A stretch of DNA of 64,000 bases. It comes from Elusimicrobiota bacterium (lineage in GTDB: Bacteria; Elusimicrobiota; Elusimicrobia; UBA1565). Below, piece after piece: positions 8,366 through 12,825 of this stretch (its first letter is position 1; every line of letters begins with the position of its first letter). The notes beneath the pieces were generated by a model. That model worked only from the letters and a program-made list of their open reading frames with translations. It searched no databases and was not told where the DNA came from. Location: NCBI GenBank assembly GCA_016196755.1, contig JACPXC010000045.1, positions 124,001-188,000 of the forward strand, read 5' to 3'. Both the position numbers and the translations under genes were made by a program.

Positions 8366-9157
8366 TCAGCGCTGGCAGACCAGGCAGTAGACGCTGGTCC
8401 GGCCCGCCATCGGCCGGCGGGTCTTGACCAGCTTGTGACCGCAGGTCCCGGTGGCGCGCCCGTAGACCGCGTGCGCGAGGTGGGCCCGTCCCGGATGGCC
8501 CAGCGGGTCGAGGAAGGCCTCGTCGCTCAAGGTCGAGCCGCCGGTCTCGATGCCCGCGGTCAGTACCCGCTTGACGGCGGCGACGAGCCGCTCGCGCTCC
8601 GCCGCGCTCAGCGACGCCGCGGCGCGGGCCGGCCGCACGCCGGCCAAGAACAGCGCCTCGGTGGCGTAGATGTTTCCCACCCCGGCGACGACGGCCTGGT
8701 CGAGCAGCAAGGCCTTGACCGGGGCGCGGCGCTTGCGGAACTCGCGGGCCAGGTGCGCGGCGTCGAAAGCGGCCTCGAGCGGCTCGGGGCCGAACTCGGG
8801 AAGCGGACAGGCGATGCGCCCGAAGCGGCGCGGGTCGACGAAGCGCATCGACTCGGGGCCGAAGTCCATCCGGAAGCGCTCATGAGCCTGGGTCGGAGCG
8901 GCGCTGGGCGCCAGGAACAGGCGGCCCGACATGCCGAGGTGTCCCGTGAGCGTCCTGTCACCGGAGAAGTCGAGCAGGAGATACTTCCCCCGCCGCCGGG
9001 CCGCGAGGAACTCGGAGTCCACGAGTCCCGTCAGCGCCTTCGGCGGAGGCCGGCGGTAGAAAGTCACCTTCGGCACCACGACCGCGCTGACCCGCCGCCC
9101 GACCAGCCGCTCGGCCAGCACGCGGCGCACCGTCTCGACCTCCGGCAGCTCGGGCAT
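8366..9157 (-). CDS. mutM: Formamidopyrimidine-DNA glycosylase
   Basis: A 263-residue base-excision repair glycosylase/AP lyase that removes 8-oxoguanine and ring-opened purines. It begins with the catalytic MPELPEVETV, with Pro2 as nucleophile and Glu3. The conserved Lys is in RRRGKYLLLDF, and TGHLGMSGRL and AGVGNIYATEALF are family blocks. The C-terminal zinc finger reads CGHK then YCLVCQ, so one ligand is His in place of Cys (Cys-His-Cys-Cys), a point to check. The ATG overlaps the stop of the upstream cytochrome assembly gene by one base. The last 45 bases are duplicated at 6693-6737. Confidence 0.94.
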   Translation of the reverse strand: MPELPEVETVRRVLAERLVGRRVSAVVVPKVTFYRRPPPKALTGLVDSEFLAARRRGKYLLLDFSGDRTLTGHLGMSGRLFLAPSAAPTQAHERFRMDFGPESMRFVDPRRFGRIACPLPEFGPEPLEAAFDAAHLAREFRKRRAPVKALLLDQAVVAGVGNIYATEALFLAGVRPARAAASLSAAERERLVAAVKRVLTAGIETGGSTLSDEAFLDPLGHPGRAHLAHAVYGRATGTCGHKLVKTRRPMAGRTSVYCLVCQR

Positions 9158-9972
9158 CAGCGGAAATGCGACGCGCCGAACATCGTCACGAGCACCGAGG
9201 CGAAGGCGGCCGTGCCGAGAAGGGCCCCGCGCCGGCCGCGCAGGCCGCCGAAGAACTGGCCGTAGAGGCAGGCGCCGTAGAGGGTCCAGGTGACGAGGGC
9301 CAGGGTCTCCTTCGCGCTCCAGCCCCAAGCGCGGCCGAAGGCGGCCTTCGACCAGACCATGCCCATGACCAGGCCCAGCGTCAGGACCGGCCAGGAGAAC
9401 GCCAAAGTCGAGCCGTGCAGGCGGTCGAGCTCCTCTAAGGCCGGCAGGCGGTAGCAGAGCGCGCTGGGCTTCTTGGACTTGAGCTGGCGCTCCTGGACGA
9501 GCCGGGCCAGGCCCACGCCGAAGGCGTTGGCGAAGCCGGTGTAGGCCAGCATCAGAAGCATCGGGTGGATGTTGAGCCAGTAGCTGCGCAGGCCCTCGGC
9601 CAGAGGCCCGCCCTTGGGGTCGATCAAGAGCGCCGCCCCGCCGGCCAAGAGGGTCCACGGCAGGACGAACGCGCCGAGGATGCCGAGCCGCCCCACCCCC
9701 TCGACGACGAGGAACACCAGGGCGTTGGTGAAGGCCAGCCAGGACAGCAGGCCGTGCAGGGTCGCCATCGGGAAGAACCAGCGGTTCTCGGGCCAGACCC
9801 AGAACTCGCGCAGCAGCGTGCAGAAGGAGCCCAGGTGGAAGAACGCGCCCAGCCCCAGGAGGCGCCACATCCAGCGCGGCAGGCGCTCGTCGCGCGAGCC
9901 GAGATAGGCGAGCGCCAGGCCGGTGGCCGCCGCGTAGAGCGCGAAGGCGATGAGGAGTAGGGCCTTGAGCAT
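9157..9972 (-). CDS. CcsA/HemX-like cytochrome c assembly membrane protein
   Basis: An integral membrane protein of 271 residues with about eight helices and the CcsA/HemX pattern: histidines in LGAFFHLGSF, ATLHGLLSW, WLNIHPMLLM and RLHGSTLAFSW, and a Trp motif RAWGWSAKETLALVTW that corresponds to a shortened WGxWWxWDxKE heme-handling signature. It probably supports heme delivery for cytochrome c or hemA-linked heme synthesis. I start it at the ATG at 9972 because the ATG at 9984 overlaps a TAAGAT -10 box (9988-9983). It is followed by mutM with a one-base overlap. A complete CcsBA is encoded separately at 21277. Confidence 0.85.
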   Translation of the reverse strand: MLKALLLIAFALYAAATGLALAYLGSRDERLPRWMWRLLGLGAFFHLGSFCTLLREFWVWPENRWFFPMATLHGLLSWLAFTNALVFLVVEGVGRLGILGAFVLPWTLLAGGAALLIDPKGGPLAEGLRSYWLNIHPMLLMLAYTGFANAFGVGLARLVQERQLKSKKPSALCYRLPALEELDRLHGSTLAFSWPVLTLGLVMGMVWSKAAFGRAWGWSAKETLALVTWTLYGACLYGQFFGGLRGRRGALLGTAAFASVLVTMFGASHFR

Positions 9973-9993
9973 CGGTGTGTCCATCTTATCAAC

Positions 9994-10023
9994 TTGCCGC
10001 TTCCGCGTCATTCTTGCTAGAGT
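9994..10023 (+). promoter_or_regulatory. Promoter of the CADD-like gene
   Basis: TTGCCG (9994-9999), an 18-bp spacer and TAGAGT (10018-10023) precede the ATG at 10064. The leader of about 30 nt carries a GAGGAG ribosome binding site, so this is a leadered gene. It overlaps the divergent promoter of the CcsA-like gene. Confidence 0.45.
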
Positions 10024-10063
10024 CGGCGGACCGTTTTCGAGGACGCGCTTTCGAGGAGAAAAC

Positions 10064-10747
10064 ATGGACTGGAAGGCCATCGACGCCACGATCGAAGAGC
10101 TCTCGCTCCTGAAGCACCCGTTCTACCAAGCCTGGTCGGCCGGCCGGCTGACCCAAGACGACCTGCGGACCTACTCGAAGGAGTACTACCACCTCGAGAA
10201 GAACTTCCCGCGCCTGGTCAGCCGCGTCCATTCCATCACCGCCGACCCCGAGGTCCGCCTCTCGCTGGTCGAGAACCTGGCCGACGAGGAGATCGGCCCC
10301 GAGAACCACCGCGAGCTGTGGCTGCGCTTCGCGGAGGGCCTGGGCCTCTCCCGCGCCGAGGTGACCGGCTCCGAGCCGAGTGCTGCGACCCGCGCCGCGT
10401 TCGACGCGCTTTTCGCGCTCTGCTCCGCGGACCCGGTGACGGGCCTGGCGGCGCTCAACGCCTACGAGTCCCAGCTCCCCAAAGTCTCCGACTCCAAGAT
10501 CGCCGGCCTCAAGGCCTTCTACGGCTTCTCGGAGCCGCGCGCCCTCGGTTTCTTCGAGGTGCATCGCCTGGCCGACGTCTGGCATTCGGAGAACGCGCGC
10601 AAGGCCGTGGACGCCGCGGGCGGCGACCAGGCCCGCGTCGATGCGGCGACCCGCGCGGCCTGCGCGGCGCTCTTGAGCTTCCTCGACGGCGTCGACGCCG
10701 ATACGCGCCAGAAGCGGGAAGGCGCGACGGCCTGCGCCGCCTGCTGA
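10064..10747 (+). CDS. CADD-type heme-oxygenase-fold protein, candidate para-aminobenzoate synthase
   Basis: A 227-residue all-helical protein of the TenA/PqqC superfamily, closest by eye to chlamydial CADD. The dimetal ligands are all present: Glu75 and His82 (LADEEIGPENH), Glu135 (AYESQLP), His167, Asp171 and His174 (FEVHRLADVWH). Tyr21 in HPFYQAW and Lys145 in SDSKIAGL sit where CADD has the Tyr and Lys needed for its self-sacrificing synthesis of para-aminobenzoate. It may therefore supply the folate precursor without PabABC; that is inference from residues. The tail (KREGATACAAC) has two cysteines. DUF420 and MFS genes follow. The main alternative is another PqqC/TenA-like enzyme. Confidence 0.85.
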   Translation: MDWKAIDATIEELSLLKHPFYQAWSAGRLTQDDLRTYSKEYYHLEKNFPRLVSRVHSITADPEVRLSLVENLADEEIGPENHRELWLRFAEGLGLSRAEVTGSEPSAATRAAFDALFALCSADPVTGLAALNAYESQLPKVSDSKIAGLKAFYGFSEPRALGFFEVHRLADVWHSENARKAVDAAGGDQARVDAATRAACAALLSFLDGVDADTRQKREGATACAAC

Positions 10748-10802
10748 CACGCCACCTCCCTGGCCGACGGTTAACGCGGGGCTCAACGCCGCCAGCGCGG
10801 CA

Positions 10803-11165
10803 TTGCTGGCCGTCGGTTGGCGCCATGCGCGGGCCGGCCGCCGCGAGGAGCATAGGGTCTGCATGCTCGGCGCGTTGGCCTGTTCGTGCGTCTTCCTGGC
10901 CTCCTATCTCGCCTATCACCACCAGGTAGGCTCCGTGCGCTTCCAAGGGACCGGCGCGCCGCGGCTGGTCTATCTCTCCATCCTGTTCACCCATACCGTC
11001 TTGGCCAGCGCCGTTCCGTTCATCGCCGGCCGGATGGTCTGGCTGGCGTGGAAGGGCCGCATCGAAGCCCACCGGGCGCTGGGGCGCTGGGGCATGCCGG
11101 TCTGGCTCTACGTCTCGGTGACGGGCGTGGTCGTGTACGGGATGCTCTATGGGCTGGGCGGATGA
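10803..11165 (+). CDS. DUF420 membrane protein (start uncertain)
   Basis: A small membrane protein with about four helices of the DUF420/YozB type, a family often linked to cytochrome oxidase assembly. Histidines in ASYLAYHHQVG, YLSILFTHTVLA and IEAHRALGRW are the conserved positions. The first usable codon here is TTG at 10803, giving 120 residues. The family-typical N-terminal motif PTVNAGLNAASAALL is encoded in the same frame from about 10764, but no ATG, GTG or TTG lies there. The true start may be a rare codon or coupled to the end of the CADD gene. Its stop overlaps the MFS start by 4 bp. Confidence 0.8.
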   Translation: MLAVGWRHARAGRREEHRVCMLGALACSCVFLASYLAYHHQVGSVRFQGTGAPRLVYLSILFTHTVLASAVPFIAGRMVWLAWKGRIEAHRALGRWGMPVWLYVSVTGVVVYGMLYGLGG

Positions 11166-12367
11166 GCGGCGCGAAGGGCATCCGAGGCGTGGGGCTGACG
11201 GCGCTCGAGCTGCGCAACGTCGCGGGCTTAAGCGGCATCTTCGCCCTGCGGATGCTGGGCCTCTTCCTCGTCTTGCCGGTCCTGAGCGTCCATGCCCTGA
11301 CCCTCGAGGGCGCCACGCCTATGTTGGCCGGCATGGCCGTGGGATTCTACGGCCTGAGCCAGACCCTCTTCACCGTGCCGATGGGGCTCTTGTCCGACCG
11401 CTGGGGCCGCAAGCCGGTCATCGCCGCGGGCCTGCTCGTCTACGCGGCGGGCAGCGTCGTCGCCGCCACCGCCGCCGGCATCGTCCCCCTCCTCATCGGG
11501 CGCTTCATCCAGGGCGCCGGGGCCATCTCGTCGGCCGTCATCGCCCTGGCCGCCGACCTCACGCGCGAGGAGGTCCGAGGCCGCGCGATGGCGGTCATCG
11601 GCATCTCGATCGGCGCCAGCTTCGCCCTGGGGTTCGCGGTGGGTCCGGTCATGAGCGCGCATTGGGGCGTGCCGTCGCTGTTCTGGAGCACGGCCGCGCT
11701 CGACCTCGTCGCCATCCTCTACCTCGTGACGATGGTCCCCACTCCCGTCGTCGAGAAGCCGCTCGAGCTCACGCGGGCCCACGTGGGCGCTATCCTGCGC
11801 GACCGCAACCTGTTCTCGCTCGACCTGCTCATGTTCATCCTCCACACCAGCCTCACCGCGGTCTGGGTCGTGACACCCAGGCTGCTCATGGCGCACTGGG
11901 ACCGCCGCCAGATGTGGCACGTCTACCTGCCGATGATCCTCATCGCCGGCCTCGTGATGCTCCCCGCCGTCGGCGTGGCCGAGGCCAAGGGCAAGCTCAA
12001 GGCCCTGCTCTTCGCCGGCGTCGGCGTCTCCGCCGCGGGCTCGCTCATCATGGCCCTCTCCGACGGCCGCGCCGTCATGACCGCGGTGGGCCTGGTGGTC
12101 TTCTTCACGGGCTTCAACCTCATCGAGCCGGTCCTGCCGTCCTTGGTGACGCGCTTCGCGCCGCGCGAACTGCGCGGCACGGCGGTCGGCGTCTTCAACA
12201 CCAGCCAGTTCCTGGGCGCCTTCTGCGGCGGGGCCCTGGGCGGCTTCTTCCTCGGCCACGGCCGCTACGGATTGTATTGGGCCCAGTTGGCGCTTTGCCT
12301 GCCTTGGGCTTGGGCCGCGTTCCGGCTCGACGACCCCCCGGCCCGGCCGGCGCCGGCGGCGGCATGA
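11162..12367 (+). CDS. MFS transporter, YajR-like
   Basis: A 401-residue major facilitator protein with 11-12 predicted membrane helices. The loop between helices 2 and 3 carries the family signature GLLSDRWGRKPVI. The order of hydrophobic segments and the opening RNVAGLSGIFALRMLGLFLVLPVL resemble YajR-type putative efflux proteins. The substrate cannot be deduced. YajR itself has a C-terminal ferredoxin-like domain, which is absent here, as the protein ends in a Pro/Ala tail. It overlaps DUF420 upstream and the next membrane protein downstream by 4 bp each, so the four genes are probably co-transcribed. Confidence 0.9.
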   Translation: MSGAKGIRGVGLTALELRNVAGLSGIFALRMLGLFLVLPVLSVHALTLEGATPMLAGMAVGFYGLSQTLFTVPMGLLSDRWGRKPVIAAGLLVYAAGSVVAATAAGIVPLLIGRFIQGAGAISSAVIALAADLTREEVRGRAMAVIGISIGASFALGFAVGPVMSAHWGVPSLFWSTAALDLVAILYLVTMVPTPVVEKPLELTRAHVGAILRDRNLFSLDLLMFILHTSLTAVWVVTPRLLMAHWDRRQMWHVYLPMILIAGLVMLPAVGVAEAKGKLKALLFAGVGVSAAGSLIMALSDGRAVMTAVGLVVFFTGFNLIEPVLPSLVTRFAPRELRGTAVGVFNTSQFLGAFCGGALGGFFLGHGRYGLYWAQLALCLPWAWAAFRLDDPPARPAPAAA

Positions 12368-12825
12368 AGGCCAAGCTCCTTCCCGCCCTCCTGGCCACCC
12401 TGGTGGTGACCGGCTCCGCGTTCGGCGCGGGCAAGGCCGTCGAAGCCCTGCCGGAGGGCGTCGTCCGGGACGCCGGCGAGCGCTGGATCCTCGAGCCCGG
12501 CCGCGAGCTCGCCGAGCGGGTCGGCGACTCGCGCGCGGTGCGCAAGGCGCGCAAGAAGGCGGCCCGACGGCTCGAGGACGCCGCCGAGAGGGCCGGCGAC
12601 GCCCTGGAGGACGCCGGCGTGGCCGATGCCGATCGCGTCGCGGCGCTCTACACGACGGGAGCCTGGGCCGCGGCGGGATTTGTCGTCTGCCTCCTGGCGG
12701 CGATGGCCCTGGGCGTCTCTTCCCTTATGAGCGCGCTGGCCCTGGGGTTGAAGGTCAGCCTGGCGTTCTTCTTTTTGCAGGGCGCGCTCGTCTGCGGGGC
12801 GGTATTCCTAGTCGGGAGGCAATAG
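12364..12825 (+). CDS. Membrane protein of unknown function
   Basis: A 153-residue protein with an N-terminal signal peptide or anchor (LLPALLATLVVTGSAFGAG), a strongly charged helical middle (AVRKARKKAARRLEDAAERAGDALED, about residues 60-85) and two C-terminal membrane helices (about 98-120 and 127-148). It belongs to an operon: its ATG overlaps the MFS stop and its TAG directly abuts the glutathione peroxidase ATG. I do not recognise a family. The amphipathic middle could lie on the periplasmic membrane face. Confidence 0.65.
   Translation: MKAKLLPALLATLVVTGSAFGAGKAVEALPEGVVRDAGERWILEPGRELAERVGDSRAVRKARKKAARRLEDAAERAGDALEDAGVADADRVAALYTTGAWAAAGFVVCLLAAMALGVSSLMSALALGLKVSLAFFFLQGALVCGAVFLVGRQ

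Follow-up and report, generated by a model that had tools for sequence, protein, structure and literature searches.

Does the gene at positions 10064-10747 of this stretch of Elusimicrobiota DNA encode a genuine self-sacrificing synthase of para-aminobenzoate (pABA) of the CADD type? A first-pass annotation had proposed this from the letters of the window, by which we mean the whole 64,000-nucleotide stretch that was analysed. The chlamydial gene CT610, which encodes CADD, was tied to folate genes by 2007 (PMC1971073, cited here from its accessible part), and the pABA role, the self-sacrifice and a related enzyme from Nitrosomonas europaea have been described in the accessible parts of PMC11965152 and of the review PMC13108848. 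Based on the family score, the invariant residues, the presence of FolP and the missing PabB and PabC, a self-sacrificing pABA synthase is the best reading of the gene, and we consider it highly probable that it is a genuine CADD-type enzyme supplying pABA for folate synthesis in this bacterium.

Gene, protein family and relation to PqqC

The open reading frame is intact on the forward strand, with an ATG at 10064 and a stop codon at 10745-10747.

10054..10058, forward strand: likely ribosome binding site AGGAG, 5 nt before the ATG, as read from the sequence
10064..10747, forward strand: CADD-family protein of 227 aa, predicted self-sacrificing 4-aminobenzoate synthase, from TIGR04305 and the 1rcw and 9pj4 alignments

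An alternative in-frame ATG lies upstream at 9950. We favour the start at 10064 and regard the one at 9950 as less likely, because an ATG is found at the same position (MDWK) in three related genomes (G203, G202 and G088), each time behind a purine-rich GGAG-type site. The NCBIfam search with the 227-residue protein gave three matches, with no TenA model among them. The protein scored 234.7 bits with TIGR04305 ('CADD family putative folate metabolism protein'), above the curated cut-off of 200, whereas the PqqC model TIGR02111 gave 56.1 bits against a cut-off of 240 and the BesC model 36.6 bits against 500. The Pfam models Haem_oxygenas_2 and TENA_THI-4/PQQC (PF03070), the latter shared by the superfamily, gave 89.1 and 76.8 bits, respectively. 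The scores with TIGR04305 and Haem_oxygenas_2 exclude a chance reading frame. Among solved structures, the best alignment was obtained with Chlamydia trachomatis CADD (1rcw, E 4e-41), and two entries described as '4-aminobenzoate synthase' also aligned (8va9, E 7e-41; 9pj4, E 4e-38). We treat 9pj4 as the N. europaea enzyme (NE1434, NePabS) or a near relative, since its sequence fits the numbering and the peptides in the accessible part of PMC11965152 with a single exception, a K in place of Q just ahead of HPFY. Structure prediction of the CADD protein from two sequences yielded a mean pLDDT of 53.9, which was too poor for use. The family score and the alignment with 1rcw bear out the proposal of a CADD-type protein, and the product is a confirmed member of a known family in another phylum.

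The window protein and PqqC have a heme-oxygenase-like fold in common, and this fold, together with the PF03070 and TIGR02111 scores, is what would suggest that a member of the PqqC or TenA family had been mistaken for CADD. We regard such a misreading as extremely improbable: the score is far below the PqqC cut-off, whereas the CADD score exceeds its own, and the two PqqC-like proteins in a joint alignment differ from the window protein at the active site. The Tyr/Lys pair of CADD (Tyr21 and Lys145 in the window protein) is absent from all five more distant relatives in this alignment. All six metal-ligand columns are retained in the proteins from Caballeronia and G212, which have other residues at both positions; five of the six are retained in the G224 protein and a single one in a Thioclava PqqC and in an S. 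meliloti relative, although these distant rows are only 18-26% identical and their alignment is uncertain. The 9pj4 protein, on the other hand, keeps all ligands and key residues. A first tree of all 22 rows, in which the outgroups were very distant, had long branches that met and gave no resolution. Once the three long-branch rows (G212, G224 and Caballeronia) were removed, the 16 Elusimicrobiota sequences together with 9pj4 formed a group apart from both PqqC-like rows, with 100/100 for the split; neither tree contained a TenA row. The placement within a PqqC clade, which the annotation had named as evidence against its claim, was therefore not seen. In the trees built after this removal, the sequence from G061, a member of another family, grouped with the genus of the window genome (95/94 and 97/94) on a long branch, from which we claim no gene transfer.

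Two weak matches from the phylum, G212 (38.6 bits) and G224 (24.1 bits), were excluded from the CADD set, being about 24% identical and without the Tyr/Lys pair. They are other heme-oxygenase-like proteins (loci L061 and L062, respectively) with most or all of the metal ligands. Among 14 control genomes, Sulfolobus acidocaldarius gave the sole match to the CADD model, below the cut-off.

Key residues, predicted chemistry and metal choice

The residues considered here are located as follows, with C. trachomatis (Ct) and N. europaea (Ne) numbering in brackets.

10124..10126, forward strand: codon of Tyr21 (Ct Y27, Ne Y25), the predicted sacrificial tyrosine, by alignment; invariant in 16/16
10286..10309, forward strand: stretch with metal ligands Glu75 and His82, by alignment and conservation
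10463..10468, forward strand: Tyr134 (Ct Y141, Ne F148) and metal ligand Glu135, by alignment
10496..10498, forward strand: codon of Lys145 (Ct K152, Ne K159), the predicted amino-group donor, by alignment; invariant in 16/16
10550..10552, forward strand: Phe163 (Ct Y170, Ne F177), the second metal-selecting position, of the Nitrosomonas type, by alignment; role from the accessible part of PMC11965152
10562..10585, forward strand: stretch with metal ligands His167, Asp171 and His174, by alignment and conservation
10715..10744, forward strand: C-terminal tail, ending in TACAAC; a tail cysteine occurs in 17/17 Elusimicrobiota C-termini

All six dimetal ligands, three His and three carboxylates, are present in the alignment columns (E75, H82, E135, H167, D171 and H174). 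They match E81, H88, E142, H174, D178 and H181 of the C. trachomatis protein, which we take to be the metal ligands of CADD. Tyr37, Tyr41 and Trp86 correspond to Tyr41, Tyr45 and Trp99 of NePabS (the Trp pair was counted by hand). In NePabS, Tyr25, Tyr41 and Lys159 are essential, and changing Tyr45 or Trp99 lowers the activity (PMC11965152). Twelve key positions, as well as Trp86, are unchanged in all 16 full-length Elusimicrobiota sequences, of which 15, including that of the window, come from the order and one (G061) from another family; together they represent four families. The statement of the first-pass annotation that the six ligands, Tyr21 and Lys145 are conserved at matching spacing thus holds in the alignment.

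If the window protein behaves like the two proven enzymes, the dimetal site would react with O2 and reductant, and an oxidising hole would move via aromatic residues to Tyr21, whose side chain would be cleaved off, leaving glycine. By the same analogy, the carboxylate oxygens would stem from O2 and the amino group would be donated by Lys145, which would thereby be converted to aminoadipate; each polypeptide would produce one pABA and then be spent. O2 is probably available, since COX1-family matches occur in all 16 CADD-bearing genomes of the order, a feature that does not discriminate them from the CADD-lacking ones (34 of 40).

Two positions occupied by either Tyr or Phe set the metal use: both are Tyr in CADD, which uses Mn/Fe, and both are Phe in NePabS, which uses Fe/Fe, while the F148Y variant of NePabS accepts either metal set and mixed metals in the laboratory (PMC11965152, accessible part). 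The combination Tyr134/Phe163 is fixed in 16/16 Elusimicrobiota sequences and mixes the Chlamydia and Nitrosomonas types. Its resemblance to NePabS F148Y leads us to predict that the Elusimicrobiota enzyme is Fe/Fe-using or mixed-metal and not strictly dependent on Mn/Fe. The fixed pair can be regarded as a natural version of that variant, offering a ready test of metal choice.

The C. trachomatis protein (CT610; 1rcw/8va9) resembles the window protein in the fold family, the six ligands, Tyr27, Lys152 and Tyr141 near the metals, but has Tyr170 where the window protein has Phe163. According to the accessible part of PMC1971073, its gene clusters with folate genes, unlike the window gene. CADD has also been reported to act in host-cell apoptosis; nothing in the window data supports such a role. 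NePabS shares Tyr25, Tyr41, Tyr45, Trp99, Lys159 and all ligands with the window protein, and its Phe177 equals Phe163, but it has Phe148 in place of Tyr134. The 9pj4 protein is 40.8% identical to the window protein and contains a 9-residue insertion that the latter lacks. Like the window gene, NE1434 lies outside a folate cluster (PMC11965152, accessible part).

pABA and folate genes in the genome and the phylum

The genome to which the window belongs comprises 4.59 Mb in 67 contigs, with an estimated completeness of 100% and contamination of 2.74%, and a search with the CADD protein gave one match in it. FolP is present (273.7 bits against a cut-off of 162.6), its gene lying between genes read as ftsH and glmM, so that folate synthesis requires pABA. 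A second pterin-binding match is part of a 1173-residue open frame, probably MetH. Just one PF00425 chorismate-binding protein was found. It is of the TrpE type and encoded in an operon with trpG, trpD, trpC/F, trpB, trpA and shikimate genes (names partly from reading translations). TrpE models matched it best, with 441 bits, below the cut-off of 517.7, and PabB models scored lower and also below their cut-offs. Its motif is PIAGT in place of the PabB motif PIKGT, whose Lys binds chorismate (PMC7552465, accessible part). As a control for this motif, among 30 chorismate-binding loci of the phylum the three above the pabB cut-off have PIKGT and the other 27 P[IL]AGT. The only class-IV aminotransferase (PF01063) is IlvE (430.6 bits against a cut-off of 363), which reached 144 bits on the PabC model, below 176.9. 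Where the annotation had suggested a search for pabA, pabB and pabC, the PF00425 and PF01063 matches in this genome thus included neither a PabB- nor a PabC-type protein, while TrpG, which could serve as PabA, is present. TrpG notwithstanding, the missing PabB and PabC indicate that the genome has no classical pABA route, although Pfam could miss a divergent PabC, which may be the case for the third gene in the G150 cluster described below.

We examined 198 evenly chosen Elusimicrobiota genomes and found CADD in five, four above the cut-off and G088, in which the ends of two contigs each carry a piece of the gene. Within the order, the distribution is patchy, with CADD in 16 of 56 genomes (15 above the cut-off and G088; the weak matches G212 and G224 are left out of this count). 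FolP matches occur in 15 of the 16 CADD-bearing genomes (14 above the cut-off), G218 being the exception, and in 29 of the 40 others, an enrichment that is not significant (Fisher test, p = 0.15). Seven of the 16 have no chorismate-binding protein and nine have one, always with PIAGT. A second PF00425 protein was found in the order only in G150 and G160, both without CADD, and in 0/16 CADD-bearing genomes. The additional protein carries a motif with Lys, PMKGT, and lies beside a GATase. The only models that it matches with an E value of 1e-40 or better are those of PabB, and it stays below every one of their cut-offs. Since G150 and G160 belong to the same genus as the CADD-bearing G181 and G189, this suggests that one pABA route was replaced by the other within that genus, but two genomes are too few, and the mutual exclusion of CADD and PabB is not significant (Fisher test with two PabB genomes, p = 0.48).

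The pab clusters of these two genomes (G150, L063:2797-4987; G160, L064:1660-3218 and a downstream frame) consist of the GATase gene, the PMKGT PabB-like gene and a third gene. The last, at the position of pabC, encodes 208 aa and is 78% identical between the two genomes; for the G150 copy, neither Pfam (E 0.01) nor NCBIfam (E 1e-40) gave a match. It is a candidate for an unusual aminodeoxychorismate lyase.

FolP is matched in 180 of the 198 genomes (in 176 above the cut-off), any chorismate-binding protein occurs in 83, and both occur in 79. A FolP match without a chorismate-binding protein occurs in 101/198, and G061 is the only one of these with CADD. This leaves 100/198 genomes in which FolP is matched while CADD and chorismate-binding proteins are both missing, a figure hand-counted from tables that include some incomplete genomes and that would be at least 96 if the four FolP matches below the cut-off were false. 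In the order, 27 of 44 FolP-bearing genomes have neither CADD nor a second chorismate-binding protein. The missing PabB therefore fits a function of CADD in pABA synthesis but is no proof of it. The idea that CADD replaces PabABC accordingly stands insofar as PabB and PabC are missing here, and is weakened insofar as PabB absence is common in the phylum without CADD. Uptake of pABA or another route may be common among those FolP-bearing genomes, and how they obtain pABA is a broader puzzle for the phylum.

In two CADD-bearing genomes the FolP gene is broken: that of G198 (G198:C63:22903-23703) has an internal TGA, and that of G214 (G214:C1:3135239-3136008) is in two overlapping frames. Either sequencing error or decay may account for this.

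Gene neighbourhood, competing readings and range of the route

The following genes adjoin the CADD gene in the window.

9157..10005, reverse strand: cytochrome c assembly protein of the CcsA type, divergent neighbour, from PF01578 (116.4 bits on 9157-10089); the start codon is uncertain and the listed frame extends to 10089
10803..11165, forward strand: DUF420 membrane protein, downstream neighbour, from PF04238 (116.7 bits); the start may be slightly upstream of 10803
11162..12367, forward strand: MFS transporter, from PF07690, on the longer frame 10886-12367

In all four CADD-bearing genomes of the family (G000, G202, G203 and G088), CADD is flanked by MutM and CcsA to one side and by DUF420 to the other, and the two gene pieces in G088 occupy matching halves of this MutM-CcsA-CADD-DUF420 block. 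The MFS gene is next to DUF420 in G203 and G088 also, following it in the three family genomes whose contig reaches that far. The conserved block argues that CADD is native and against contamination. No folate gene is among the four scanned neighbours in the window (CcsA, DUF420, MFS and MutM), and no Rfam match to an RNA regulator was found in 9800-12500. An origin from a mobile element was considered and rejected: the CADD protein gave no phage match, and its 13 plasmid matches are 26.8-29.4% identical, three of them annotated as PqqC.

These neighbours raise the question of whether the protein might be a dimetal oxidase of the CADD fold that kept the residues while acting mainly on another substrate, for example in respiratory or haem/cytochrome physiology. 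The constant flanking by CcsA and DUF420 in the family would fit this, as would the many FolP-bearing relatives that live without CADD or a recognised pABA route. However, the neighbours change elsewhere, to YwiC and a histidine kinase in G181 and to a following histidine kinase in G189. Moreover, an oxidase of another substrate would not need Tyr21 and Lys145, yet both are constant in 16/16 sequences, whereas the five more distant relatives do without them. We therefore find this explanation quite unlikely. Somewhat less remote, but still improbable, is that the gene works while most pABA is imported from the community and CADD is merely a back-up; the 100/198 genomes with FolP and no recognised route would be compatible with such import, whereas the sacrificial residues, invariant across four families, point to selection for the reaction itself. 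A more far-reaching proposal, which we hold to be speculative, would make the Elusimicrobiota enzymes a natural third type of self-sacrificing pABA synthase (Tyr/Phe, with Fe/Fe or Mn/Fe), in which a conserved Cys tail aids metal loading or electron supply, and would have the FolP-bearing relatives without CADD and PabB use an undiscovered pABA source. A self-sacrificing pABA synthase of the known kind remains our preferred reading.

The annotation had further expected that a likely free-living carrier would widen the known range of the pathway. This expectation was not supported, because the enzyme of N. europaea, which is free-living, is already biochemically proven, and the accessible part of PMC11965152 names Wolbachia, Rickettsia, Chloroflexi, Sphingomonas and Nitrosomonas, with Chloroflexi and Sphingomonas as putative carriers. 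The window bacterium is probably free-living like N. europaea, judging from its 4.6-Mb genome, the trp/shikimate operon and a groundwater link via G203, of the same genus: the CADD protein of G203 is identical to that of an Elusimicrobia groundwater MAG (JACRDU010000138), which is 77% identical to that of the window. Together with Nitrosomonas, the Elusimicrobiota case adds evidence that the route is not bound to intracellular life. Judging from titles and abstract openings, none of the papers retrieved on Elusimicrobiota concerns this enzyme. What is new is the phylum, the occurrence in 16/56 genomes of the order and the fixed Tyr/Phe pair beside the metals. A known system, not a new one, is thereby extended to one more phylum, with a very probable function, and the self-sacrificing pABA route takes its place in Elusimicrobiota as a patchy trait of the order.

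A minor observation concerns the C-terminal tail. All 17 Elusimicrobiota CADD C-termini that were read contain at least one Cys within the last 15 residues, and the Chlamydia protein has SCHQSY as its C-terminus, judging from the CT610 reverse primer given in PMC1971073.
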